This document shows, piece after piece, positions 22,203-39,414 of a DNA stretch of 64,000 bases (position 1 is the stretch's first letter; each line of letters starts with the position of its first letter). The notes beneath the pieces are model-generated. The model was given only the letters and a program-made list of their open reading frames with translations, ran no database searches and had not been told where the DNA came from. Source of the stretch: an uncultured Pelagibacteraceae bacterium (GTDB taxonomy: Bacteria > Pseudomonadota > Alphaproteobacteria > Pelagibacterales > Pelagibacteraceae); assembly GCA_902596205.1 (NCBI GenBank), contig CACJSY010000005.1:1-64000 (forward strand), written 5' to 3'. The translations under genes and the position numbers were made by a program.

Positions 22203-23969
22203 ATGAAGTCATTTACAGATTTTTATTTAATTATCAAAAATTTAAGATACCAAAAAACTTTCTACTTTTTTTTTTTAATTTGCTTTTTATCTGCGCTTTT
22301 AGAAGTTATTAGTATCGGTACAATTTTGCCTTTGTTGAGCCTAGTCACTGATGACAATTTTTTAAAATCGTTTCCTATAATTTATGATTTCTTATTAATT
22401 TTTTCACCAATCAATTTTTTTTCATTCGATACTTCCGATAAAATGAAAATAATTTTTTCTGTTTGCTTTTTTACACTTTTTATTTTTTTATTAAGATTTT
22501 TTTTCCAAATTTTTACGGAATGGGTAAAGGCAGAATTTATTTATAAATTGGAATATTCAATGGCAAATAAATTATTCGGCAACATCATGAATGCACCTTA
22601 CTTGTTTCATTTAAATTCTAATAGCTCTGATTTTCATAGAGACATTCAAAGTAATATTGGATATTTTTCAGCTACGGCCAATGCCGTTACTGTTTTTCTT
22701 ATTGAAATATTAATAATTTTAGGATTAGTTTTTTTAGCATTCAAAATAAATTTTAGTATAACAGCACTGATAATTTTTTTCTTATTCGTTTTTGGTTTTC
22801 TTTTTTTAAATTTTACCAAGAAAATTAATTTATCGCTCGGAAAAGATGTTCATGAATTTTCTCAATTAAGAATTAAAAATTTAATAGAGGGATTGGGAGG
22901 TATAAAAGAGATTTTAATCTTTAATAAAATTGATGATTTTATAAATCAATTTAAACATTCAAATTCAAAACTTACTTCAGCAAAAAAAAAAAATAGCATT
23001 ATAGGCTCACTACCACGGTATATTATCGAAATACTTTTGGTAATAATATTGGTAATCACTTTATTAGTTATTTCAAAATCAAATAGTCTAATTATAAATA
23101 ATCTTACTTTGTTAGGCTTTTTTTCAGCTACTTTTATTCGATTAACTCCATCGGCGTATAGAATTATTAGTTCTTTGCAGAGGATTAAATTTACTCAAAA
23201 AATTTTAAATAGCCTTAATAAAAACCTAGAATATTTTGATAAAATAAAAATTGATAAAGACGAAAAAAGTAAAAGGAAAAAAATTGAAAATATCAGCATT
23301 GAAAATAGTATTGTAATAAAAAATATTAAATTTTCTTATAATTCTAAAAAAAAATTATTTGAAAGTTTAGATTTGGAAATTAAGATTGGTGACACTATTG
23401 GAATATTCGGAGAGAGTGGTTCAGGCAAAAGCACCTTTGTAAATCTATTAATTGGATTATTAAAACCGGATAAAGGTGAAATTCTTATTAATGATAAAAA
23501 TATTAATTCTAATATCTATTTATGGAGAAAAAATATTGGATATGTTCCTCAAAATATTTTTCTAATTGATGATACTTTTAAAAAAAATATTTCTCTAAAT
23601 TTTGATAGTAAAAAAGAAAATTTAAAGAGATTAAATGAGTGTTTAAAGCAATCTGAATTAGAAAAATTTATAAGCAGCTTGCCAAATGGCATTGATACTA
23701 TAGTTGGTGAAAGAGGTAGTAGAATTTCTGGAGGACAACTACAAAGAGTAGGTATAGCAAGAGCTCTTTACAACAATCCTGAAATTTTAATTTTTGATGA
23801 GTCAACAAGTGCATTGGATCGTGAGACTGAATTAGAAATTTTTAAAAATATTTATAAATTTAAAGATAGAAAAACACTTATAATTATAACTCATAAAAAA
23901 GAACTCTTAAAGGATTGTGATAAAATTTATAAATTAGAAAATGGGAAATTTTTAGTAAATGAAAAATAA
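22203..23969 (+). CDS. ABC transporter, fused permease/ATPase (MsbA/PglK-type)
   Basis: N-terminal TM segments; GIFGESGSGKSTFVNLLIGLLKPDKGEI; ISGGQLQRVGIARALYNNPEILIFDESTSALD. Confidence 0.92.
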   Translation: MKSFTDFYLIIKNLRYQKTFYFFFLICFLSALLEVISIGTILPLLSLVTDDNFLKSFPIIYDFLLIFSPINFFSFDTSDKMKIIFSVCFFTLFIFLLRFFFQIFTEWVKAEFIYKLEYSMANKLFGNIMNAPYLFHLNSNSSDFHRDIQSNIGYFSATANAVTVFLIEILIILGLVFLAFKINFSITALIIFFLFVFGFLFLNFTKKINLSLGKDVHEFSQLRIKNLIEGLGGIKEILIFNKIDDFINQFKHSNSKLTSAKKKNSIIGSLPRYIIEILLVIILVITLLVISKSNSLIINNLTLLGFFSATFIRLTPSAYRIISSLQRIKFTQKILNSLNKNLEYFDKIKIDKDEKSKRKKIENISIENSIVIKNIKFSYNSKKKLFESLDLEIKIGDTIGIFGESGSGKSTFVNLLIGLLKPDKGEILINDKNINSNIYLWRKNIGYVPQNIFLIDDTFKKNISLNFDSKKENLKRLNECLKQSELEKFISSLPNGIDTIVGERGSRISGGQLQRVGIARALYNNPEILIFDESTSALDRETELEIFKNIYKFKDRKTLIIITHKKELLKDCDKIYKLENGKFLVNEK

Positions 23970-24804
23970 AAATTTTATAAGAATTATACCAAAACTTGAT
24001 ATTAAAAATGGTATGTTAATTAAAGGTATTAATTTGGAGGGTTTACGGGTTTTAGGAGACCCTTTTAATTTTGCTAGGTATTATTATGAGAATCTTGCTG
24101 ATGAAATTTGTTATATAGACAATGTAGCAACTTTATATGGAACAAATAATCTAAGTAATTTTATCTCTGATACAGCTAAAAATATATTCATACCTATCTC
24201 AGTCGGAGGAGGCATTAAAACAATTGATGATGTTAAGCGAATATTTAATGCTGGGGCAGATAAAATTTGTATTAATTCAGCTGCAATCGAAAAGCCAAAA
24301 TTTATTAGCAAAATTGCCAGAATTTTTGGATCAGCAAATATTACAATAATTATTGAGTATATTAAAATAGATAATAAGTATTTTATTACAAAATCAACCG
24401 GTAGAGACACTGTGAGAATTGACCCAATTAAATGGGCAAAAATTGTAGAAAAAGAAGGAGCCGGAGAAATCTTTTTGACTTCTGTAAATCACGAAGGCTT
24501 AAAAAAAGGATTTGATATCAAAATTATAAATAAAATTTCAAAAAATGCATCTATACCAATAATTGCACACGGGGGTGCAGGAGAAATAAAACATGTTATA
24601 GAATTGGTGAAAAAAACGAATGTATCAGGTGTAGCTCTCTCAAGCTTACTACATTACGATATTGCGAATTTTTTCAAAATTAAAAATAGAACAATAGGTA
24701 ATTTTAATTATTTAGAGAGTAATTCAAAAATCAAAAAGCCAAAAAACTTTATAAAATTAATAAAAAAAGAATTAGAACGGGAAGGATTTAATGTCAGATT
24801 ATAA
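23959..24804 (+). CDS. hisF: HisF-like glycosyl amidation protein (WbuZ type)
   Basis: RIIPKLDIKNGMLIKGINLEGLRVLGDP; ISVGGGIKTIDDVKRIFNAGADKICINSAA; linked to HisH- and PseA-like genes. Confidence 0.88.
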   Translation: MKNKNFIRIIPKLDIKNGMLIKGINLEGLRVLGDPFNFARYYYENLADEICYIDNVATLYGTNNLSNFISDTAKNIFIPISVGGGIKTIDDVKRIFNAGADKICINSAAIEKPKFISKIARIFGSANITIIIEYIKIDNKYFITKSTGRDTVRIDPIKWAKIVEKEGAGEIFLTSVNHEGLKKGFDIKIINKISKNASIPIIAHGGAGEIKHVIELVKKTNVSGVALSSLLHYDIANFFKIKNRTIGNFNYLESNSKIKKPKNFIKLIKKELEREGFNVRL

Positions 24805-25420
24805 TTTTTCTAAAGTTAAAGTAGGCGTTATAGATTTAAAATCTCACAATTTATTTAGTATTTTACAAGCTATGAAAAATATTGATTATAAAACTACAGT
24901 ATTAAACAAACCCAATCAATTTAAGGATAAAGATATAATAATCTTGCCAGGTGTTGGATCTTTTAAATATGCCATGAACTTTTTAAAAAATTCAGGATTA
25001 TCAGACTCTATTAAAGAGCACGTTCAAAAGAAAAAAACACTTTTTGGGATTTGTTTGGGTATGCAATTACTATTTTCAGAAAGTGAGGAGTTTGGAAAAA
25101 CTAATGGACTGAATATATTCAAAGGAAAAGTAATTAAATTTAATGATAAAAATTTAAAAATACCCCACATAGGATGGAATAAAATAGACAAAAAAAACGG
25201 AATTTTTTTACCCAAAAATTTATTTAAAAATAAGTTCTATTTTACCCACTCTTTTTATTGCAAGCCACATAATGACAATGATATCCATGCAATAACAAAT
25301 TACGGGAGGTTTAAATTTTGTTCTTCAGTGGTCAAAAAAAATATTGTGGGAACACAATTTCACCCAGAGAAAAGTGGCAAAGCTGGACTTAAAATATTAA
25401 AGCAATTAATAAAGATTTAA
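24791..25420 (+). CDS. hisH: HisH-like glutamine amidotransferase
   Basis: IILPGVGSFKYAMNFL; LFGICLGMQLLFSESEEFG; GTQFHPEKSGKAGLKIL. Confidence 0.9.
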   Translation: MSDYNFSKVKVGVIDLKSHNLFSILQAMKNIDYKTTVLNKPNQFKDKDIIILPGVGSFKYAMNFLKNSGLSDSIKEHVQKKKTLFGICLGMQLLFSESEEFGKTNGLNIFKGKVIKFNDKNLKIPHIGWNKIDKKNGIFLPKNLFKNKFYFTHSFYCKPHNDNDIHAITNYGRFKFCSSVVKKNIVGTQFHPEKSGKAGLKILKQLIKI

Positions 25421-25423
25421 AGA

Positions 25424-26644
25424 ATGAAACTAAAAACCTTATTTGGCTTACCTTCAAAAGTAGTATTTTGCAAAAAGACTTTAATATCTAATCAAAGACC
25501 AACCTCAGCTATAGAGTTTTTGCACAATAAAAAAACAAAAAAAAAAACTTTAAATATTGATAAAAATGGTATCTCAGACTCTTGGAAATATTCTCAACTT
25601 AAAAGAAAAATTAATTTTGATAAAAGAGAAAAACAGCTTCTAAAGCTTTTAAGCAAACACAGAGGAAAACATGGGGAATATGATTGTATTGTTCCCAGTA
25701 GTGGTGGAAAAGACAGTTGTTATGCTGCACATTTGTTAAAATTTAAATATGGAATGAACCCACTTACAGTTACCTGGCCTCCAAATTTGTATACTAATTA
25801 TGGTTATGCAAATTTTAAAAATTTATTAAAAACGGGGAAATTATCTAATATTTCAGCAAGAAGAAATGAAAACACGATGAGATTATTAACAAAACTTGCA
25901 GTGGAAAATTTGATGCATCCATTTCAACCTTTCATGCTAGGTCAAAAAATTTTTCCAATAAAAGTGGCTTTAAAAATGAAAATTCCTCTCATTTTTTATG
26001 GTGAAAACGAAGCTGAGCATGGAAATCCATTAGGAGATAACGCTTCATCACTAAGAAAAAAATATTATTTCATGCATAATAATCTTAACAAATTATTTAT
26101 AAGCGGTTTAAATTTAGAAGATTTAAAAAAAAATTATAAACTAGGTTTTAAAGATTTAGAAGATTATATTCCACCCAATCAAAATGAAATTTCAAAAATT
26201 CCATTAGAAGTTCATTATTTAGGCTATTACATCAATTGGATACCTCAAGAAACATTTTATTATTCAGTTGAAAATTGCGGATTTAGACCAAGACCATTCA
26301 GGACTCAAGGCACTTATAGTAAATATAATAGCATTGATGATAAAATGGATGACCTGCATTTTTACACTTTGTTTATAAAATTTGGAATAGGTAGAGCAAC
26401 TTATGATGTTTCTCAAGAGATAAGAAATAACCATATAAACATTGAGGAAGGTAAAAAACTTATTAAAAAATACGACGGCGAATTCCCCTCAAGATATTTT
26501 AAAGAAATTTTAGATTATCTTAAAATAAAACCATCAACCTTCTTTAATAAATTGAATAAATTCAGATCACCACATTTGTGGATACACCATAAAAAAAAAT
26601 GGTTGCTCCGCCACACTGTTAATAAAGATGGATTCAATGACTAA
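25424..26644 (+). CDS. pseA: N-acetyl sugar amidotransferase (PseA/WbuX family)
   Basis: DCIVPSSGGKDSCYAAHLLKFKYGMNPLTVTWPPNLYTNYGYANFKNL PP-loop; adjacent HisF/HisH. Confidence 0.9.
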   Translation: MKLKTLFGLPSKVVFCKKTLISNQRPTSAIEFLHNKKTKKKTLNIDKNGISDSWKYSQLKRKINFDKREKQLLKLLSKHRGKHGEYDCIVPSSGGKDSCYAAHLLKFKYGMNPLTVTWPPNLYTNYGYANFKNLLKTGKLSNISARRNENTMRLLTKLAVENLMHPFQPFMLGQKIFPIKVALKMKIPLIFYGENEAEHGNPLGDNASSLRKKYYFMHNNLNKLFISGLNLEDLKKNYKLGFKDLEDYIPPNQNEISKIPLEVHYLGYYINWIPQETFYYSVENCGFRPRPFRTQGTYSKYNSIDDKMDDLHFYTLFIKFGIGRATYDVSQEIRNNHINIEEGKKLIKKYDGEFPSRYFKEILDYLKIKPSTFFNKLNKFRSPHLWIHHKKKWLLRHTVNKDGFND

Positions 26645-27885: not shown

Positions 27886-28533
27886 ATGTCAACCTTAACC
27901 AACTTAATATTTAATCAATACGTTATAAGTTTAGCCTTTCTTACTATATCAGGTTTTTTAATTAGAACTGCTCTTGTCGTATCGGGCCAGAAATGGGCAA
28001 ACACCTATCATCACCTAGCAACCTGTTTGTTACTTCCTGGCATAGGGTATATTATTACATCTATAATTAAGGATGATATTGCTTTGTCTCTGGGAATGAT
28101 TGGCGCACTTTCAATTATAAGATTTAGAAATCCTGTGAAAAGTCCATTTGAGCTAGTCATATTTTTTGCATTACTTACACTTGGTGTGGCTACTACAACT
28201 GGTTTAAAATTGTCTTTTTTACTTCTAATTTTAGTTTTGATAGTTGTCTTAGGCATTCGATTCATAGATCAGCTTTTACAAAAATTTGGTTTTTCGCTTT
28301 TTCAATTTTCTTTTAGCGATGGAAATAGTCCCCATATATTAGAAATTACTTCCTCTAAAATTTTAGATGAACTTCAAGATGAAAAGAAAATGGTATATTT
28401 TCATTTTGAGAAACAATCAAATCAATACGTCTATAGACTAATCTTCAATTCTAAAAATGAATTGATGAAATTTAAAAAATCATTAGAAAAAAACTCTTCA
28501 ATATTAGACGTCAGAGCAGATATGCAAGGATAA
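27886..28533 (+). CDS. DUF4956 membrane protein
   Basis: Multi-TM; SLGMIGALSIIRFRNPVKSPFELVIFFALLTLGVATTTG signature. ATG at 27886 preferred over TTG 27871. Confidence 0.82.
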   Translation: MSTLTNLIFNQYVISLAFLTISGFLIRTALVVSGQKWANTYHHLATCLLLPGIGYIITSIIKDDIALSLGMIGALSIIRFRNPVKSPFELVIFFALLTLGVATTTGLKLSFLLLILVLIVVLGIRFIDQLLQKFGFSLFQFSFSDGNSPHILEITSSKILDELQDEKKMVYFHFEKQSNQYVYRLIFNSKNELMKFKKSLEKNSSILDVRADMQG

Positions 28534-28538
28534 AAATA

Positions 28539-30920
28539 ATGAAAAAAATAATTTTTTTCTCCTTTTTTTCATTTACATTTATTTTTTTTTCATACAAATT
28601 TTTAGAAAGTAAACAATCTCTTAGTTTTGCTGATGAATTTTCATACAATCCTTGTAATAGTTTAAGTTTTGAAAAATCTAAGAATATTCATCCCTCTGAA
28701 TTTCAAAGTTTTGATATAAAATTACAAATAGATGAAAAAAGAAAATGGGCTAGTCTTAACCTCAGAGATGCAATTAAGGCAGAAAAAATAAATAGTTTTA
28801 CAAATAGAGAAAGAGTTAAAGGAAGGATAATTGTCATTCTAGAAAATGACTTTAAATGCTCTCTTAAAGTCACACTAAGAGCTCACGGAGATCAAGTTGA
28901 TCATAGACAAGGTAAAGGTTTACCCAGTTTAAATATAAAAATTACAGATGGCCATATTTTCGGAATTGTCGATTTTATTTTATTAAAACCTAAAATTAGA
29001 ATTTATGATAACGAAATATATGCTACTGCTCTTTTACAACAACTTGATTTACTTGCTCCTAGAACTTCTTCAGTAAATTTGACATACGGTTTCAACTCAC
29101 AAAAGTTTATTTTTCAGGAAAAAATTGTAAAAGAATTTATTGAAAATGTGAATCTAAGAGAGGGCGCTCTTTTTGAGGGAGATGAAAGGTTTGTTTTTCA
29201 AGAAGGTAATAATAAAAATATAAGATTCGTTAACCACAGGTTATCAAATAGGAACTGGGCTGCTAAAAATAATAATAATAAAAAAATAGCAGAAATTGGA
29301 TTATCAATATTGAATTATCACGGACAAATTCATGAAATGGATATCCCAAAAAATTGGGTGATCGACTATTTTTCGCTATCTAAAAAAATAGGTAACTCAA
29401 ATTATTTTTCAGAATTACCAAAGTTTGATGCCATCATGTTTGCACTTGATGCTATGGGAAATTTAAGTGTGCAAGACAGGCGATTTTACTTTGACAGTGT
29501 TCAAAATCAATTCTTACCAATTTTTTATGATGGAAAACCTACTTTATTTAGCAAAACAAATAATTTAACTAATCCACGATTAGAAGAAACAAGTAAATTA
29601 ATAGTTATAGATAAAGGGAAAATAAAATTTTATTATCCTAATTTACTCAAGGGAAAAGTTCTTAATTCAGCATTTGAGGGTTCAGAGGAAGCTTTAAGTT
29701 CGCTAGAAACAATAAACGTAGAAAAGTTTCATAAAATATTAAACAAAAACGGTATGGATATAGATTTAAATAAGACCAAATTATCTATTGAGATTTTAAG
29801 TAAAAAATTAAACTGGATGTCAAAATTCGAAAGAACGAGGATTTTTCAGCAAAATTACACATCGGAGATCAATTTGGCTGCTCCTAAATCATATCAATCT
29901 GACATTAAAAGAAGAATTCTTTTTTATAACTCAAAAGAAAAAAATTCTTTTTTATCATGCAATATTTATGGAGAAAATTGTAAAAATTTTTCTTTAAATC
30001 AAAAAGATTATCTTAAAGCCATTAGCCAATTATTAAAAGATGACAAAAAAAATGAAATTATCTTTTTAGGCAAGGATAATAATAAAGAGATAGACAAAGG
30101 TTGGTATCATCAATCATTTTTAAAATCAAAGGGTAAAAAAAATAAATTAAATTTTATCAATGATGTTGAGATAATAAATAACGGAGGAGTAAAAGTAAAT
30201 ATAGATGATGAACAAAAAAAAATATTTATTTTGAAACAAAATATAGATAGCAATTTAATATTTAAAGGTGGTTCATTAATTGATTGGGAAATATTTTTTG
30301 AAGATAGATCTAAAGATGCTCCAAAATTTATAAACGATATAAACGGGATGACTGGATGCTTAAATTTTTTAGATATGACAGTCAAAAATTTAAAATTAAA
30401 TGCTAGTGGAAGTAAATGTGAAGACTCTATTAATTTCATACGTGTAAATGGGTCTTTAGATAACTTATATATTTCAGAATCTAAATCTGATGGTTTTGAC
30501 GCTGACTTTTCCAAATTAAAAATTAATAATATTAAAATTTTTGATAGCGGAAATGATTGTATTGATTTTTCATATGGTGAATATGAATTAATCAATGTGA
30601 AGCTATCTGGATGTGGTGATAAAGGTGTTTCTATTGGGGAAAAAAGCACTGTGAAATTGAAAAAGCTTATTGCGGAAAATACCAATGTAGGAGTTGCAAC
30701 TAAAGATTATGGCACTTTCTTTGCTGAAAATCTTGAGTTAGATAATGTAGAGTATTGCATTACTGCATATAGCAAAAAACAAGAATTTAGTGGAGGTAAG
30801 GCGGATATAAAAAAAATTAATTGTTCAAATTTTAATAATTCATTTAAATCAGACAAAACATCGATGATTAAAATTGAAGAAAATCTTTCGAAGAAAAAAA
30901 AATATAACAAAGGTATATGA
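28539..30920 (+). CDS. CotH-like protein with signal peptide and C-terminal repeat (beta-helix-like) region
   Basis: 793 aa; FDIKLQIDEKRKWASL, LKVTLRAHGD, FDAIMFALDAMGNLSVQDRRFYFDSVQNQFLPIFYDG resemble CotH; sits between DUF4956 and VTC genes. Confidence 0.62.
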   Translation: MKKIIFFSFFSFTFIFFSYKFLESKQSLSFADEFSYNPCNSLSFEKSKNIHPSEFQSFDIKLQIDEKRKWASLNLRDAIKAEKINSFTNRERVKGRIIVILENDFKCSLKVTLRAHGDQVDHRQGKGLPSLNIKITDGHIFGIVDFILLKPKIRIYDNEIYATALLQQLDLLAPRTSSVNLTYGFNSQKFIFQEKIVKEFIENVNLREGALFEGDERFVFQEGNNKNIRFVNHRLSNRNWAAKNNNNKKIAEIGLSILNYHGQIHEMDIPKNWVIDYFSLSKKIGNSNYFSELPKFDAIMFALDAMGNLSVQDRRFYFDSVQNQFLPIFYDGKPTLFSKTNNLTNPRLEETSKLIVIDKGKIKFYYPNLLKGKVLNSAFEGSEEALSSLETINVEKFHKILNKNGMDIDLNKTKLSIEILSKKLNWMSKFERTRIFQQNYTSEINLAAPKSYQSDIKRRILFYNSKEKNSFLSCNIYGENCKNFSLNQKDYLKAISQLLKDDKKNEIIFLGKDNNKEIDKGWYHQSFLKSKGKKNKLNFINDVEIINNGGVKVNIDDEQKKIFILKQNIDSNLIFKGGSLIDWEIFFEDRSKDAPKFINDINGMTGCLNFLDMTVKNLKLNASGSKCEDSINFIRVNGSLDNLYISESKSDGFDADFSKLKINNIKIFDSGNDCIDFSYGEYELINVKLSGCGDKGVSIGEKSTVKLKKLIAENTNVGVATKDYGTFFAENLELDNVEYCITAYSKKQEFSGGKADIKKINCSNFNNSFKSDKTSMIKIEENLSKKKKYNKGI

Positions 30921-31557
30921 GGATTTTCAAATGAGCTTTAGGGTAGAAGAAAAATGTATTTTAAAAAATATAGATAAAAATAAATTTAAATCTACTTTGT
31001 TTAAAATTGGGGGAAAAATATTATTTCCAAAAAGAGAAATTATGAGCTTGTATTTTGACACAAAAGCTACAAAAATGTTTTTTGACTCTGAAGAAGGCAC
31101 TACGCCAAGGAAAAAAATTAGAGTAAGAACTTATCCAAATGAAAAACATAAAACATTCAATTTAGAGAAAAAAATTAATAGCGCTGAGGGCAGGTATAAA
31201 ATATCTGAAAAAATAAATATTGAAAAATATATCAAAATACTTAAGCAAGGAATAATCGATAATGAATATGGTTTTTGCTATCCTCAAATTTGGGTAAAGT
31301 ACTCTAGAGAATATTTTAGTTTGAAAGATCAAAGAATAACATTAGACACTGACATAGTTTATCAAAGTTATAAAAGTCAGATCCAAAAAAAGGATTTGGA
31401 TGTAAACATTTTTGAAATTAAGGCGAATGTGAATTTTGATAAAAATCTGTTTGATAATATTTTACCATTTGGCAGATATAGATTTTCTAAATACTCTGAA
31501 GGTTTAAAAGCTATTGAGGAGAGTAAAAATACACATCTTATACCTTTGATAAGTTAG
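30874..31557 (+). CDS. VTC-domain (polyphosphate polymerase / triphosphate-tunnel type) protein
   Basis: FRVEEKCIL; YFDTKATKMFFDSEEGTTPRKKIRVRTYP; NLEKKINSAEGRYKISEKI; KYSREYFSLKDQRITLDTDIVYQSY. True start probably ATG 30931 (MSFRVEEK). Confidence 0.82.
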   Translation: MKKIFRRKKNITKVYEDFQMSFRVEEKCILKNIDKNKFKSTLFKIGGKILFPKREIMSLYFDTKATKMFFDSEEGTTPRKKIRVRTYPNEKHKTFNLEKKINSAEGRYKISEKINIEKYIKILKQGIIDNEYGFCYPQIWVKYSREYFSLKDQRITLDTDIVYQSYKSQIQKKDLDVNIFEIKANVNFDKNLFDNILPFGRYRFSKYSEGLKAIEESKNTHLIPLIS

Positions 31558-31634: not shown

Positions 31635-33221
31635 ATGGAAAATAATTTTATTAACCTAGATTGTACATTCAGAGACGGTGGTTATCATAACAATTGGAAC
31701 TTTAAAAAACCTCTTATTGAGAAATACTTAAAGTGTATGTCCAAGTTAAAAATAAACTTTATTGAACTGGGTTTTAGATTTTTAAATAGAAACAAATCTA
31801 GAGGTGAAACAGCATATACTGAAGAAAAATTCATAAATCAATTAAGAATACCTAAAAATTTAAATATAGGAGTGATGATAAATGCTGGAGATTTTTTGAG
31901 CCACGTAGATTCGATGGACAATGTATGCAACAAAACTTTTCCTAACATAAAAAAAAGCAAAATTAAGTTTGTAAGAATAGCATGCCACTTTCATGAAATA
32001 TTTAAAATTTCAAAAATTATCAGTTGGTTAAAGAAAAGAAAAATATTGGTTGCAGTAAACTTAATGCAAATATCTGAAATTAATAAAAAACAGATTAAAA
32101 GTGTTTGCAAATTTATTTCAAAGAAAAAGATAGATATTTTTTATGTCGCAGATAGTTTAGGTTGCATGAGGCCTCAAGATATAAATTCTGTTTTTAAAGA
32201 AATTAAAAAATTTTGGAAAGGTGAACTTGGAATTCACGCACATGACAATTTACATTATGCTTTGAAAAATTCTATTATAGCAAATAAAAATCATGGTGTA
32301 AATTGGCTTGATAGCACAGTTCTTGGAATGGGAAGAGGACCAGGGAATTTGAAAACTGAGGAAATTATTAATCATTCAAAAGAAGAAAAAAATAAATATC
32401 TAATTAAAAAACTTATCAAAGAAAATTTTTCCCCACTTAAAAAAAAATATAAATGGGGTTCCAATCTATATTATCGTCTTGCTGCAAAGTTCAAGATTCA
32501 TCCAACTTATATTCAAGAGATGTTGACAGATAAGCGATATAAAAAAAATAACTATTTGCAAATTATTAAAAACTTAAGCAGAAACGACAGTACAAAATTT
32601 AATCCTTTTAAGCTCATAAGCCCACAAAATGTTTATATTAAGGATCCAATAGGAAAGGGGAACCCTTTTGCGGATATAAATAAGAAAGACGTTTTAATAA
32701 TTGGGGCTGGAAGTTCTGCTAAAATTTTAAGAAAAAAAATTGAAAATTTTATAAAACAAAATAATGTTTATGTAATTTCGTTAAACACTAATCAAAATAT
32801 CAGTGAAAATTTAATTAATTTAAGGGTTGCATCACACCCATTTCGAATAAGCTCAGATGTTTCTTTGCATTCAAAAAATAAAACGAAGCTTGCTATTCCA
32901 GCGTCTATGTTACCTAAAAAAATTTTTGATAAAATAAAAAGTAAAAAAAAATTAATGGATTACGGTCTATCAATTAATATGGACAATAAAATTATAATAA
33001 AAAAAAATTGCTGCATCTTACCAAACGCCTTAGCTATTTCTTACTCCTTAGCGATTGCAGTTGCTGGCAAAAGTAGCAAGATTTTTTTAGCTGGATTTGA
33101 CGGATATAAAGTTGACGATAGCAAAAATGATGAAACTCAATTAAGTTTAAGTCTTTTCAGAAAAAAATTCGATAAGTTGAAAATATCTTTTTTAACCCCA
33201 ACAAAATATAATTTTAGATAA
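31635..33221 (+). CDS. DRE-TIM/HMGL-like aldolase fused to an uncharacterised C-terminal domain
   Basis: DCTFRDGGYHNNWNF active-site motif, GELGIHAHDNLHYAL metal motif, LGMGRGPGN; C-terminal DVLIIGAGSS...IFLAGFDGYK domain. Confidence 0.8.
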   Translation: MENNFINLDCTFRDGGYHNNWNFKKPLIEKYLKCMSKLKINFIELGFRFLNRNKSRGETAYTEEKFINQLRIPKNLNIGVMINAGDFLSHVDSMDNVCNKTFPNIKKSKIKFVRIACHFHEIFKISKIISWLKKRKILVAVNLMQISEINKKQIKSVCKFISKKKIDIFYVADSLGCMRPQDINSVFKEIKKFWKGELGIHAHDNLHYALKNSIIANKNHGVNWLDSTVLGMGRGPGNLKTEEIINHSKEEKNKYLIKKLIKENFSPLKKKYKWGSNLYYRLAAKFKIHPTYIQEMLTDKRYKKNNYLQIIKNLSRNDSTKFNPFKLISPQNVYIKDPIGKGNPFADINKKDVLIIGAGSSAKILRKKIENFIKQNNVYVISLNTNQNISENLINLRVASHPFRISSDVSLHSKNKTKLAIPASMLPKKIFDKIKSKKKLMDYGLSINMDNKIIIKKNCCILPNALAISYSLAIAVAGKSSKIFLAGFDGYKVDDSKNDETQLSLSLFRKKFDKLKISFLTPTKYNFR

Positions 33222-33940
33222 TGAGAAAAATATTAATTATTATACCTGCACGATATAAATCTTCAAGATTTCCGGGAAAACCCTTAAAAAAAATTTTAGG
33301 AAGAGAATTAGTTTTAAGAGTTGCTGATAGATGTAAAAAAATATCAAATAAAAGGGATCTGATAATAGCGACGGATAATTCTATGATTTCTAAAGTAGCA
33401 AAAAAAGAAAATTTTAAAGTGATTATGACTTCCCAGAATTGTTTAACCGGAACAGATAGAGTCGCTGAAGTAGCAAAAAAAATTAATTCAAAAATTTATA
33501 TAAATGTTCAAGGAGATGAGCCTTTAGTAAATCCAAGGGATATTAAAAAGATCATATCTCAAAAGATTAAATATCCAAATCATATAATTTGTGGATTTGC
33601 TAAGATTAGAAATTTTGAAAATCCAGCAAGTAAAAATATACCCAAAGTAGTAATGAACAAAAACAACGAATTAGTTTATATTTCAAGAGCTCTTGTACCA
33701 AGTTCAAAAAAAAAAAGTAAAATACAGTTTTACAAACAAGTATGTATTTATGCGTTTAATAAAATGGAGCTTGCAAAATTTAGCTCTATGAAAAAAAAAT
33801 CAGCACTAGAGAAGCTTGAGGACATTGAGATTTTAAGGTTTTTTGATTTAGGTATTAAAATTAAAATGGTTAAATTGAGTTCTAAAACTTTAGCGGTAGA
33901 TGTAAAAAGCGATATTAAAAAAGTAGAAAAATTTTTATAA
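33221..33940 (+). CDS. KdsB-like CMP-ulosonate cytidylyltransferase
   Basis: ILIIIPARYKSSRFPGKPLKKILGRELVLRVADRC; NVQGDEPLVNP. Confidence 0.88.
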   Translation: MRKILIIIPARYKSSRFPGKPLKKILGRELVLRVADRCKKISNKRDLIIATDNSMISKVAKKENFKVIMTSQNCLTGTDRVAEVAKKINSKIYINVQGDEPLVNPRDIKKIISQKIKYPNHIICGFAKIRNFENPASKNIPKVVMNKNNELVYISRALVPSSKKKSKIQFYKQVCIYAFNKMELAKFSSMKKKSALEKLEDIEILRFFDLGIKIKMVKLSSKTLAVDVKSDIKKVEKFL

Positions 33941-33941
33941 A

Positions 33942-34820
33942 ATGAAAAAAAAATTTATTGACCCAAATATAAAAAATAAATCTGTAACGGTAGAGAAAAG
34001 ATTACAATTTGTAAATTTTAATAAAAAATCTCTTCCTTTACCAACTGAAATTGAAATTAGCGAGTCAGGAATATGTAATAGAAAATGTTCTTTCTGTCCG
34101 AGAAGTGACCCGGAATTTGTTCATAAAAAAGAATTCATTTCGAATAAATTGCACCTAAAATTATGTAACGAATTAAAAGCTCTTAATTATGGAGGAACCA
34201 TAAGATATAGTGGGTTTGTAGAACCTTTATTAGATAAAAACATCTTTAATTTGATAAAAATGGCAAAAGATAAACTTCCCGATAGCAATATTGAACTCGT
34301 AACAAATGGAGATGTTTTAAACTTAGCAAGATTAAAAAAATTATTTACACATGGTTTGAACAAAATTCTTATTAGTGCATATGACGGCAAGAAAGAGGCA
34401 GATAAGCTTGAAGAACTCTGCTTAAGAGCAAAACTTAAATCAGAGCAATATATAGTTAGACATAGGTATCTTCATGAAAGCCAAGATTTTGGAATTACGT
34501 TGAGTAATAGATCCGGATCAATGCAAAATGCTGAATACAAAATAGAAAGTCTTAAAGAACCTTTAAAAAAACCATGTTTTATACCTAGTTATACCTTTTT
34601 TTTAGACTATCAAGGTGATGTTTTAATGTGCCCACATGATTGGGGAAAAAAAATTATATTGGGAAATTTAAATCACAAATCTTTTAGTGAAATTTGGTTT
34701 AGCAAAAGGGCAATGAATATAAGAAGTATGCTAAATAATTCTAACAGAAATTTTTCTCCTTGTAATGTCTGCGATGTAGATGGAACTTTGATGGGAAAAA
34801 TAAATTCAACTTATTTTTAA
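33942..34820 (+). CDS. Radical SAM/SPASM domain protein
   Basis: EISESGICNRKCSFCPRS (CX3CX2C) and C-terminal CPHDWGKKIILGNLNHKSFSEIW...CNVCD. Confidence 0.88.
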   Translation: MKKKFIDPNIKNKSVTVEKRLQFVNFNKKSLPLPTEIEISESGICNRKCSFCPRSDPEFVHKKEFISNKLHLKLCNELKALNYGGTIRYSGFVEPLLDKNIFNLIKMAKDKLPDSNIELVTNGDVLNLARLKKLFTHGLNKILISAYDGKKEADKLEELCLRAKLKSEQYIVRHRYLHESQDFGITLSNRSGSMQNAEYKIESLKEPLKKPCFIPSYTFFLDYQGDVLMCPHDWGKKIILGNLNHKSFSEIWFSKRAMNIRSMLNNSNRNFSPCNVCDVDGTLMGKINSTYF

Positions 34821-34826
34821 CACTTT

Positions 34827-36167
34827 ATGCGTATAGGGCTTGAGCAAAAAAAGATTTTAGACATTTCCAAGAAATTAACTAACAAAAATAAGAAACTTAA
34901 TGAACATCAAATTAGTGCATTAAATTATTTTGCTTTATGGGGAGATAGTTTAGGATTTGAAAGAATAAAGTGCAAAATTTATGGTGTGCAAAATTTTTTC
35001 AATTTTTGTTTAAAGATACTTAAAGATATTGTTGCCATTGCTTTTTTAAAAAATTACAAAATTTTAAAAAATTCAAAGTTCAATTCAAAACCCTTTAAAA
35101 AATTAATAATTTCAAGATCCATTATTGATGATTTTGATAGAAGAGGAAATTATAAAGATAGATACTTTTTGATAAATTCGAATAGTGAAAAAGATACCTT
35201 ATTTATTTTAATAAATTCTGGAGAAAAATTACCACAAAAAATTGCAAAAAACGTTATTATTATTTATCAAAAAGGAAGATCATTTGAGTTATTTTTTTTA
35301 TTAAAATATTTATTAAATAAAATCATTTCTTCCAATTTTTCAATTAATCAATTTTTTTACAAAACGTCATCATCTATCGTAATTGGCGAGGTAATTATTG
35401 AATTTTTAAAAAAAGAAATTAACTATGATAGAATAAAATCAATACTTGTACCCTACGAGGGACAACCATATGAGCATCTTATTTTTGAAGAAGCTCGAAA
35501 AAATAACAAAAAATTAGCAATCGGTGGATATGATCATAGTGCTCCGCATAGTATCCCGACACATCTAATGTATAGATCTTATTCACCAGATATTCTTTTC
35601 GTGAATGGTAGTAGCCAAGTTAGTTTCTCTAAAAAATTTTTGGAATGGCCAAAGAGAAAAATTCGATTAGCCCCTTCACTAAGATATCCTAAAAAATCAA
35701 AGCTTAACTTTCAAAATAAAGTCTTTTTGCCTTATAATATTCCCAATGAAACAGTTGTAATAGATGAGTTTAAAAAGATAATACTAGAGGAACCTAATTT
35801 AAATTATAGATCTTTGAAAATTAAAAATCACCCTATGATGATTAATTCAAAAAGACACTTAATATTAAAGAGTAAATTAGAAAAAATTATTAAAGAAAAT
35901 CAAAAAAGAAATAAAAATAAAAATAAAAAAAATATTGCAATTTTTATTGGCGCAACGACTGGCGTAATAGTAGCTCTTGAAAAAAAAATTGACGTTATTC
36001 ATATTTGTTTCGACTCAATTTTTGATTCATATAGCCAAACTTTATGGCCAAATTTACGAGTGAAACAAATTTCAAAAAACTCATTTACATATAGACTAAA
36101 AAAATATAACACGTTTTTAAAATTTAATAATATTCAAAATTGTTACAAAAAATATTATGCAATCTAA
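34827..36167 (+). CDS. Surface carbohydrate biosynthesis protein, possible glycosyltransferase
   Basis: 446-aa ORF, glycan context; C-terminal NIAIFIGATTGVIVALEKKIDVIHICFD. Confidence 0.45.
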   Translation: MRIGLEQKKILDISKKLTNKNKKLNEHQISALNYFALWGDSLGFERIKCKIYGVQNFFNFCLKILKDIVAIAFLKNYKILKNSKFNSKPFKKLIISRSIIDDFDRRGNYKDRYFLINSNSEKDTLFILINSGEKLPQKIAKNVIIIYQKGRSFELFFLLKYLLNKIISSNFSINQFFYKTSSSIVIGEVIIEFLKKEINYDRIKSILVPYEGQPYEHLIFEEARKNNKKLAIGGYDHSAPHSIPTHLMYRSYSPDILFVNGSSQVSFSKKFLEWPKRKIRLAPSLRYPKKSKLNFQNKVFLPYNIPNETVVIDEFKKIILEEPNLNYRSLKIKNHPMMINSKRHLILKSKLEKIIKENQKRNKNKNKKNIAIFIGATTGVIVALEKKIDVIHICFDSIFDSYSQTLWPNLRVKQISKNSFTYRLKKYNTFLKFNNIQNCYKKYYAI

Positions 36168-37236
36168 AAGATCGATATTTAACAAAACATTATGGGCCGA
36201 AGAAATTCAAAGAGTTAGGGGCCCTTTGGAATCTAGATTTAATAAAATTAGATTAGATAAAAATGAAAAGCCTGATAATCACTTATCTAAATTAATTAAA
36301 GATATTAAGAAAAATATTAAACATGAACATTTAACCGCTTATCCAGAGACAGAAAAACTTTACAATACAATTTCTAAAAAATTTAAAGTCAAAAAAGAGT
36401 CAATTGTTCTTACGCCAGGTTCTGATGCAGCTATAAAGAATTGTTTGGATCTCTTTGCAGAAAAGAATGACAAAATTATTTCTATTGATCCAACATTTGC
36501 CATGGTGGACATTTACTCTAAAATTAAAAGAGTTAAACAAATTAAGATAAAATATAATAGAAAATTAGAATTAGATTATAAAAAAATATTTGAAACAATT
36601 AAAAATAGAAAAATAAGCCTTGTTATTTTAGCTAATCCAAATAGTCCTACTGGGACTATTATACCCAAAAGAATTCTTTTTAATATTTTAAAATCTTGTG
36701 AAAAAAAAAATATTGTAGTTTTAATAGATGAAGCTTATTTTGGTTTTTATAAATTTTCAATGATTCCTTATATTAGAAAATTTACAAACCTCGTAGTTTG
36801 CCGAACATTCTCAAAAGCATTTGGTTTAGCAGGTTGTAGAGTTGGTTTCATTGCCACTAATAAAAAATTGGCTAACAGACTATATAATTTAAGGCCCATG
36901 TATGAAATTAACTCTCTTGGTGTAATGATTGTTAATGAAATTTTAAAAAAAGATGTATTTGTTAATAAAAATTTAAATGCACAATTAGAGGGAAAAAAAT
37001 ATTTAATTAAAGAAGTTAAAAAAATGAAACTTCAATATTTAGACGGAAATGCTAATTTTATTCACATTGATCTAGGGAGTAAAAAAAATAAAGCTGAAAG
37101 AACATTTTTGAAAAACAAAATTTTAATTAGGGGAGGACTAAATATTACAGGATATAAAAATTTTTTAAGAGTTTCTTTAGCACCCAAAAGAATAATGAAG
37201 AAAGTAATTAAAATTTTAAAAGATATTCAAAGATAG
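36157..37236 (+). CDS. HisC-like class I/II PLP aminotransferase
   Basis: LTPGSDAAIKNCLDLFAE; LANPNSPTGTII; VLIDEAYFGF; RTFSKAFGLAGCRVGF. Confidence 0.87.
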   Translation: MQSKRSIFNKTLWAEEIQRVRGPLESRFNKIRLDKNEKPDNHLSKLIKDIKKNIKHEHLTAYPETEKLYNTISKKFKVKKESIVLTPGSDAAIKNCLDLFAEKNDKIISIDPTFAMVDIYSKIKRVKQIKIKYNRKLELDYKKIFETIKNRKISLVILANPNSPTGTIIPKRILFNILKSCEKKNIVVLIDEAYFGFYKFSMIPYIRKFTNLVVCRTFSKAFGLAGCRVGFIATNKKLANRLYNLRPMYEINSLGVMIVNEILKKDVFVNKNLNAQLEGKKYLIKEVKKMKLQYLDGNANFIHIDLGSKKNKAERTFLKNKILIRGGLNITGYKNFLRVSLAPKRIMKKVIKILKDIQR

Positions 37237-37239
37237 AAT

Positions 37240-38109
37240 ATGCAGACCCCATCAAATTCTCCAAGAATAAGTATTATTATGAATTGTTTTAATGGTGAAG
37301 AATTTCTTAATAAGGCTTTAGATAGTATTGTTAAACAGACTTATAATGACTGGGAACTAATCTTCTGGGATGTAAGTACTTCAGATAAAAGTAAGAAGAT
37401 TTTAGATAGTTATAAAGAGAACAGGTTTAGATATTTTAATTCTGGATTAAAAAAAAATTTGTACCATTCTAGAAATGAAGCAATAGAAGTTTCTAATGGA
37501 GAAATAATTGCCTTTTTAGATTGTGATGATTGGTGGCACCAAAACAAATTAGAGAAACAAATAGAACTTTTTAATGATGAAACCGTAGCTATGGTTTATT
37601 CAAATTATTTTGAATATCATCAAGTTAAAAAAAAGCTAAGAAAATTAAGTAATAAAAAAATTTTATCAGGTTACGTACAGAATAGAATAATTCACGATTA
37701 TCATATTGGAATATTAACAACATTAATTAGAAAAAAAATCTTTCATAGTTTGGGAGGTTACAATAATTTCTTTCATATTTGTGGAGATTTTGAATTTAAC
37801 ATTAGAATGAGCAATATTCACAAAGTTATCGGACTAAAGGAACATCTAGCCTACTATCGAGTCCATAACAAAAATATATCTAGAGATCTTGATAAAGAAA
37901 TTATCGAATTAAATTATTGTAAAGAGATTTTCAAAAAAGAAAATTATCATAATCTTAAGAAGTTTGAGAATTATTTGAATTATAGAAAGTTTAAGAATAA
38001 TTTAGTAAAAAACGATAAACTTAAAGCATTTAAAATATTTTTAGATTTAAAATTCAGCTTTTTAAAATTAAAGGCTTTAATTTTATTTTTTTGGAGGATC
38101 TTAAATTAA
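37240..38109 (+). CDS. Glycosyltransferase family 2
   Basis: RISIIMNCFNGEEFLNKALDSIVKQTYNDWELIFWDVSTSD; IIAFLDCDDWW. Confidence 0.92.
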   Translation: MQTPSNSPRISIIMNCFNGEEFLNKALDSIVKQTYNDWELIFWDVSTSDKSKKILDSYKENRFRYFNSGLKKNLYHSRNEAIEVSNGEIIAFLDCDDWWHQNKLEKQIELFNDETVAMVYSNYFEYHQVKKKLRKLSNKKILSGYVQNRIIHDYHIGILTTLIRKKIFHSLGGYNNFFHICGDFEFNIRMSNIHKVIGLKEHLAYYRVHNKNISRDLDKEIIELNYCKEIFKKENYHNLKKFENYLNYRKFKNNLVKNDKLKAFKIFLDLKFSFLKLKALILFFWRILN

Positions 38110-38522
38110 TGAAAATTGGGAAAAAAATTTTAGTCATGGGTTTACCTGGATCTGGAAAAACCACACTAGCAAAAATTTTAGTAAAAGAATTAAATGCTTC
38201 TTGGTTAAATGCTGATGAAGTTAGAAAAAAATATAATGACTGGGATTTTTCCGAAGCAGGAAGACAAAGACAAGCTAAAAGAATGTTTGATTTAGCAGAA
38301 GAATTTATTAGCCAAGGAAAAAATGTAGTGGCTGATTTTATTTGTCCAACAAAAAAAACAAGGAATGAATTTAGACCAGATAAGATAATTTGGATGGACA
38401 CTATAATTAAAGGAAGATTTGATGACACAAATAAAATTTTTGAGAAACCAGATAATTATGACTTTAGAGTTACAGTAAAAGACGCGATAAATGAAAGTAA
38501 AAAAATCTTAAAAGAAATTTGA
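38109..38522 (+). CDS. Adenylylsulfate kinase-like P-loop kinase
   Basis: ILVMGLPGSGKTTLAKILVKELNASWLNADEVRKKYNDWDFSEAGRQRQAKRMFDLA; start at ATG 38109. Confidence 0.7.
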   Translation: MKIGKKILVMGLPGSGKTTLAKILVKELNASWLNADEVRKKYNDWDFSEAGRQRQAKRMFDLAEEFISQGKNVVADFICPTKKTRNEFRPDKIIWMDTIIKGRFDDTNKIFEKPDNYDFRVTVKDAINESKKILKEI

Positions 38523-38529
38523 GAGTAAA

Positions 38530-39414
38530 ATGAATTTTTCACTTCATATAATAAAGCAGATAAAAACTTTTATTAAATTTCCGATTCAATTTTTAAAAAT
38601 TCTATTTGATGACATCAAAAAAGATTTTTTTTATGATCACAAAAAAAAATATAATAAAGTTTTAGTTATAGGGGTACAAAAATCTGGGACTACTCTCATA
38701 GAGTGGATTTTGTCAGAGATGGGCTATGTCAATCAGGTTACTTCTCCACTAAGAATCTTTTATGAAAAAAATTTAAAGTATGTTCATGATTTATCCTCTA
38801 AAATGCTTTCTTATTTACCAGATCGTAAGTTCACTTTTTTAAAAAGACATTCAGAAGCAACATTTGATAATTTAAAAATAATTAAAGATTCAAATCTTAA
38901 AATTATTTTAAGTATTAGAAATTTAAAACAGATAATGATAAGTAGATATATACATATAATTTCTGACAAAAACTTTCCACAATATTATAAATTTAAGGAT
39001 TTAGATTATGTAGAGGGTTTTAGGCTTTCTTTAATTAAAAATCATATAGAAGGTGAGGTGCCGATAAAAATATTTAATGAATGGTTAATAAACTGGGAAA
39101 AAGCAATAAAAGAAAAAAAAATAGATTGTTTAATTCTAAATTATAATGATTTCAAAATTAATGAAAAAAATTACATTGATAAAATTTTGAATTTTTTGGA
39201 AATTGAGGATTGCAAATCTAGTGATATTTTAAAAAAACATAAAGAAAGAATAGAAAAGATGAAAAACAAAACACTTGAGGATAACTTAAAAAAAAATTTG
39301 CATTCCCAAACTTACAATAGTCTTTCAGATAATATTAAGTTTAAGTTAAACAAAGAAATTTCTGATGAAGAAATTAATAATTTAATTAAAAAATACGAAT
39401 TACCGGGCGTGTAG
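38530..39414 (+). CDS. Sulfotransferase family protein; 3' end overlaps the tRNA-Val gene
   Basis: VLVIGVQKSGTTLIEWILSEMG (5'-PSB-like); LSIRNLKQIMISRY. Stop TAG at 39412-39414 lies inside the tRNA. Confidence 0.78.
   Translation: MNFSLHIIKQIKTFIKFPIQFLKILFDDIKKDFFYDHKKKYNKVLVIGVQKSGTTLIEWILSEMGYVNQVTSPLRIFYEKNLKYVHDLSSKMLSYLPDRKFTFLKRHSEATFDNLKIIKDSNLKIILSIRNLKQIMISRYIHIISDKNFPQYYKFKDLDYVEGFRLSLIKNHIEGEVPIKIFNEWLINWEKAIKEKKIDCLILNYNDFKINEKNYIDKILNFLEIEDCKSSDILKKHKERIEKMKNKTLEDNLKKNLHSQTYNSLSDNIKFKLNKEISDEEINNLIKKYELPGV

Follow-up and report, generated by a model that had tools for sequence, protein, structure and literature searches.

What could a DUF4956 membrane protein, an exported 793-aa protein and a VTC-domain protein do together at the surface of a Pelagibacteraceae cell? 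Their genes lie in an island within the window, i.e. the whole stretch of 64,000 nucleotides analysed here, and the ORF list agrees with the original prediction that they are direct neighbours, all three being consecutive ORFs on the + strand. The VTC gene probably starts at ATG 30931 and not at TTG 30874, because close relatives open with MSFR.E.K. The features of the locus are:

27886..28533, + strand: DUF4956 membrane protein, 215 aa, starting at ATG 27886 (PF16316, 29 bits)
28539..30920, + strand: exported CotH-beta-helix protein, 793 aa (AF2, Foldseek, hhalign, KD hydrophobicity), with a predicted signal anchor (residues 4-22), a CotH kinase-fold domain (about 55-450) and a right-handed beta-helix (about 540-785)
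29457..29459, + strand: Gly307, at the CotH catalytic Asp site (B. subtilis D228) by alignment
29529..29531, + strand: D331, the invariant counterpart of the CotH metal-binding Asp (D251) by alignment
30339..30833, + strand: beta-helix core, residues 601-765, with 33 of the 50 invariant positions of the protein, including D629, D651, D654, D656, D673, D676, D694, K695, E701, K722, D723 and K746
30931..31557, + strand: soluble VTC-domain protein, 208 aa (PF09359), with key residues K8, R64, R66, K81, K90, Y124, R126, R135, E162 and K187

The triad is a self-contained and recurrent unit

Among 297 genomes of the order, the middle protein was found in 36, the VTC protein in 38, DUF4956 in 41 and all three in 33, the triad occurring in about 12% of these relatives. 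For 35 of 42 VTC genes a DUF4956 gene lies within 4.5 kb, and the other seven are on contigs where no DUF4956 was found. At the 21 loci examined, the three genes were together in every case and in identical order in 20, a pyrophosphatase gene being interposed once. The triad is therefore a self-contained unit, since no other neighbour family occurred in more than 10 of the 21 loci, and on the same ground the glycan genes of the window were ruled out as part of the module. The glycan-island setting given in the original prediction is correct as a location, but the surrounding glycan genes fall outside the conserved unit.

The linkage extends well beyond the order: of 80 DUF4956 loci across bacteria, all taken from named genomes, 76 contained VTC and 69 both CotH and VTC, in line with the statement in the original prediction that the triad recurs elsewhere with no function assigned. 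Streptococcal, clostridial and bifidobacterial pel loci carry cotH, polyphosphate polymerase and DUF4956 genes (PMC7112168), and a Clostridium perfringens locus contains VTC and CotH genes (PMC2879425), so that this widespread set is found near biofilm polysaccharide genes as well as in that locus. The Gram-positive pel loci resemble the window in having the same three families, contiguous, next to surface polysaccharide genes and of unassigned function (PMC7112168). There, however, the kinase gene is called a CotH orthologue and is accompanied by a DUF4832 or GGDEF/EAL gene and by pelDEADAFG, whereas in the window the CotH fold bears a beta-helix and has another residue in place of the catalytic Asp, and none of the annotated neighbours was recognised as a pel gene. 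Triad-like sets near pel operons being already known (PMC7112168), the window triad is a variant of an uncharacterised module.

The VTC protein and polyphosphate metabolism

The VTC protein passed the PF09359 cut-off of 23 bits with 68.5 bits (E 8e-19), and its family profile matches the structure of yeast Vtc4 (3g3q, E 7e-12), so that by homology it probably adopts a triphosphate-tunnel fold. A check of the Lys/Arg tunnel residues, which had been suggested with the original prediction, supported it on this point: all eight mapped Vtc4 residues (K200, R264, R266, K281, K294, Y359, R361 and R373) are conserved in the window protein, and E162 and S186-K187 are invariant across 23 aligned proteins. 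In yeast Vtc4, R264 and R266 are essential for polyphosphate synthesis (PMC8749416). The active site thus looks intact, and we infer polymerase activity from these residues. Unlike Vtc4, the window protein is a stand-alone domain of 208 aa with neither SPX nor transmembrane domain. No assay of a bacterial VTC protein of this kind was found in the literature consulted, and a phage search with the protein gave no match.

Neither PPK1 nor PPX was found in 13 of 21 triad genomes, two of them single-contig assemblies, and therefore VTC is the only polyphosphate-polymerase candidate found there. A PPK2 search returned a single weak match, a remnant with two in-frame stops located in the window's own genome outside the window (G000:C17:501-1037).

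Soluble pyrophosphatases accompany the triad in some relatives

The link to phosphate chemistry made in the original prediction gained from an additional gene. Soluble pyrophosphatases of family PF00719 occur in only 5 of the 297 genomes, and all five adjoin the triad or are fused to it; the probability that all five would lie in triad genomes by chance is 2e-5 (hypergeometric), adjacency left uncounted. In one genome (G221; L004:632-3205, - strand) a CotH-beta-helix protein is fused to a complete family I pyrophosphatase domain, and at four loci (L109, L112, L113 and L024) the pyrophosphatase is a separate gene within or next to the triad, 70-144 bp from VTC or DUF4956, and is the sole PF00719 protein of its genome. 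The N-termini of the four separate proteins are hydrophobic and signal-like, and the triad-linked pyrophosphatases are apparently exported. The four separate proteins retain the active-site pattern of the family. Because their positions differ, as do their sequences (37-52% identity), the linkage does not reflect one recent copy. This link between pyrophosphatase and triad is new. The housekeeping pyrophosphatase of most relatives is presumably of another kind, and no PF00719 protein was found in the window's own genome (about 1 Mb, 83% complete). That the only soluble pyrophosphatases among 297 relatives sit in this cassette and are seemingly exported would tie it to phosphoanhydride chemistry beyond the cytoplasm; however, VTC polymerisation itself releases no PPi, and the link therefore needs a further step.

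The exported protein combines a CotH fold with a beta-helix

The middle protein has a single N-terminal hydrophobic segment, and its AF2 model (pTM 0.83) gave B. cereus CotH (5jd9/5jda, E 8e-10) as the top Foldseek matches in the PDB, followed by CtkA, a HipA-like kinase, and then by PL3 pectate lyases. By hhalign the N-terminal half matches canonical CotH (95.5%, 1.4e-8), and in a profile-profile comparison it matches CotH-beta-helix proteins of other bacteria more strongly (99.6%, 1e-23), these proteins themselves matching the CotH model PF08757. No such Pfam/NCBIfam match was obtained for the middle protein or for 14 order-level relatives. The description of an exported CotH-like protein is thus supported by fold and hydrophobic segment but not by a Pfam match, while the repeat-like C-terminus is real and corresponds to the right-handed beta-helix, whose profile matches the beta-helix of an alphaproteobacterial relative (E 3.5e-13). 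A PDB sequence search with the middle-protein profile found nothing, so that a fold search was needed; a pattern scan of genome contigs returned no relatives, a plasmid search gave no match, and a Connexin43 Pfam match (19 bits, below cut-off) was discarded as spurious.

The original prediction also raised the kinase activity of CotH proteins. In 5jd9, the catalytic Asp within NFDGFVHN and the metal-binding Asp within IPWD are 23 residues apart, as are D228 and D251 of B. subtilis CotH, where D228Q and D251A are inactive (PMC7821199). The window protein shares the kinase fold and the metal-binding Asp (D331) with Bacillus CotH but has only about 11% identity to it, a fused beta-helix and Gly in place of the catalytic Asp. 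Because of this replacement, classical protein-kinase activity of the window copy is unlikely, as judged from its residues. The loss of catalytic residues is confined to this protein and does not extend to VTC. It is also part of a wider pattern. The catalytic-Asp site is His in 29 of the 30 proteins of a joint beta-helix alignment, the window copy with Gly being the exception, and the metal-binding Asp is retained in all 30. Among the 29 are four that were found only after the pattern had been noticed; they come from the same phylum, and each of them belongs to a triad. Across 77 aligned CotH rows the site is Asp in 70 and His in all four beta-helix types; CotH proteins without this beta-helix keep Asp where the motif is readable, and one more close relative of the window copy has Ala. 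The alignments thus mark Asp-to-His as the signature of the beta-helix type of CotH.

The consistency of this change, together with an invariant metal Asp and a preserved fold, raises the alternative that CotH-beta-helix proteins are active atypical kinases or phosphate transferases, with His for the catalytic Asp, that move phosphate from exported polyphosphate to surface proteins or glycans held on the beta-helix. A polyphosphate source is near, with an exported pyrophosphatase as well in relatives, and ATP is absent outside the cell. The window copy, however, has Gly at the key site and Asp replacing a conserved Asn, and the kinase domain is less conserved than the beta-helix; we consider this alternative rather unlikely.

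The beta-helix C-terminus is, by alignment, the most constrained region of the protein: of the 50 residues invariant among 14 relatives, 33 fall in its core, and its Asp/Glu/Lys ladder is kept across 30 diverse proteins. Such a ladder would also suit a beta-helix that itself works on a glycan of the cell surface, be it as a polysaccharide lyase, an epimerase or a hydrolase; the CotH fold would then be a binding scaffold, and VTC and DUF4956 would be regulators. Foldseek matches to PL3 pectate lyases, polygalacturonases and AlgG/AlgE epimerases point in this direction, as do matches of relatives to the Beta_helix, NosD and Pect-lyase Pfam models. These fold matches have poor E values (0.01 or worse), however, and the CotH proteins of many canonical triads (about 470-550 aa) lack room for this beta-helix; we consider an enzymatic beta-helix served by the other proteins unlikely.

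The DUF4956 membrane protein

The window DUF4956 protein falls just short of the PF16316 cut-off (29 versus 30.6 bits), while all 45 aligned relatives match this model. Its AF2 model (pLDDT 87) has 4-5 transmembrane helices and a C-terminal ferredoxin-like (ACT-like) domain, for which the best Foldseek matches were ACT/Lrp-type domains with weak E values, and the motif GALSIxRFR is invariant. The MgtC model PF02308 (E<=0.1) is matched by 18 of 45 relatives (best 2.5e-6), the window protein not being among them, and ACT_4 by one. The C-terminus of MgtC is described as a divergent ACT domain in the title of a paper cited in PMC4469704. In its membrane-domain motif and its ACT-like tail the family resembles MgtC, and we regard DUF4956 as MgtC-like with moderate confidence. 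A VTC1-like polyphosphate channel was also considered and rejected, since a PDB fold search with DUF4956 gave no match to the membrane channel of yeast VTC; export of polyphosphate is therefore a guess.

A candidate envelope module for phosphate-linked surface modification

Taken together, these data lead us to a tentative preferred reading, to which we give somewhat less than even weight: the triad may be a self-contained envelope module for extracytoplasmic polyphosphate- or pyrophosphate-linked modification of a surface polymer. We favour it because the VTC tunnel residues are kept, the linkage is strict, the CotH-beta-helix protein appears exported and a pyrophosphatase is linked, and also because the beta-helix is pectate-lyase-like and related sets adjoin pel exopolysaccharide operons (PMC7112168). 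Cytosolic VTC would convert ATP to polyphosphate or a related phosphoanhydride product, and the MgtC-like DUF4956 protein beside it in the inner membrane could act as partner, regulator or exit route. Outside, the beta-helix of the exported protein would bind or modify a polymer of the cell surface and in doing so use, attach or process the phosphate product. In the window copy, the kinase-fold half is probably no classical protein kinase. In some relatives, the exported pyrophosphatase may remove PPi or short polyphosphate.

It is improbable that VTC is instead a sensing or signalling triphosphate-tunnel protein controlling phosphate/ATP homeostasis with DUF4956 and using the exported protein as output: the kinship of DUF4956 to MgtC, its ACT-like domain and the shortness of VTC, devoid of SPX and membrane parts, would suit such a role, but every mapped polymerase residue is kept and the linkage to exported pyrophosphatases better fits synthesis or processing.

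The envelope-module reading has a bolder form, which we hold as a long shot, where surface phosphorylation is fuelled by exported polyphosphate and not by ATP, VTC and its MgtC-like partner supplying a CotH-fold/beta-helix enzyme with His for Asp, and a dedicated exported pyrophosphatase disposing of residual PPi in some genomes. If true, bacteria could phosphorylate their own surface without extracellular ATP. The module is now testable, with most invariants in the beta-helix, the Asp-to-His change marking the beta-helix type and the pyrophosphatases sitting in the cassette.

Genomic setting of the triad

The island has a GC content of 25-26%, against about 30% outside it, contains nucleotide-sugar and glycosyl-transfer genes around the triad and ends at a tRNA-Val and a lone 5S rRNA. 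In SAR11, HVR2 is a surface-gene island flanked by 23S and 5S genes (PMC2217521), and by analogy the layout of the island matches it. This layout, taken with a genome of about 1 Mb and its base composition, points to SAR11. Upstream of the triad, HisF-like, HisH-like and WbuX N-acetyl sugar amidotransferase genes are consecutive (23959-26644; cf. acetamidino-sugar pathways). Downstream, a set at 31635-37233 encodes an HMGL-like aldolase with an additional C-terminal part, a KdsB-like cytidylyltransferase, a radical SAM/SPASM protein, an unknown 446-aa protein and a HisC-like aminotransferase, and is possibly an unusual CMP-activated sugar pathway. At the end of the island, a pair encoding an APS-kinase-like P-loop protein and a sulfotransferase (38091-39411) suggests a sulfated surface glycan. 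Elsewhere in the window, an AdoCbl-II riboswitch at 1568-1646 lies upstream of a 619-aa ORF.
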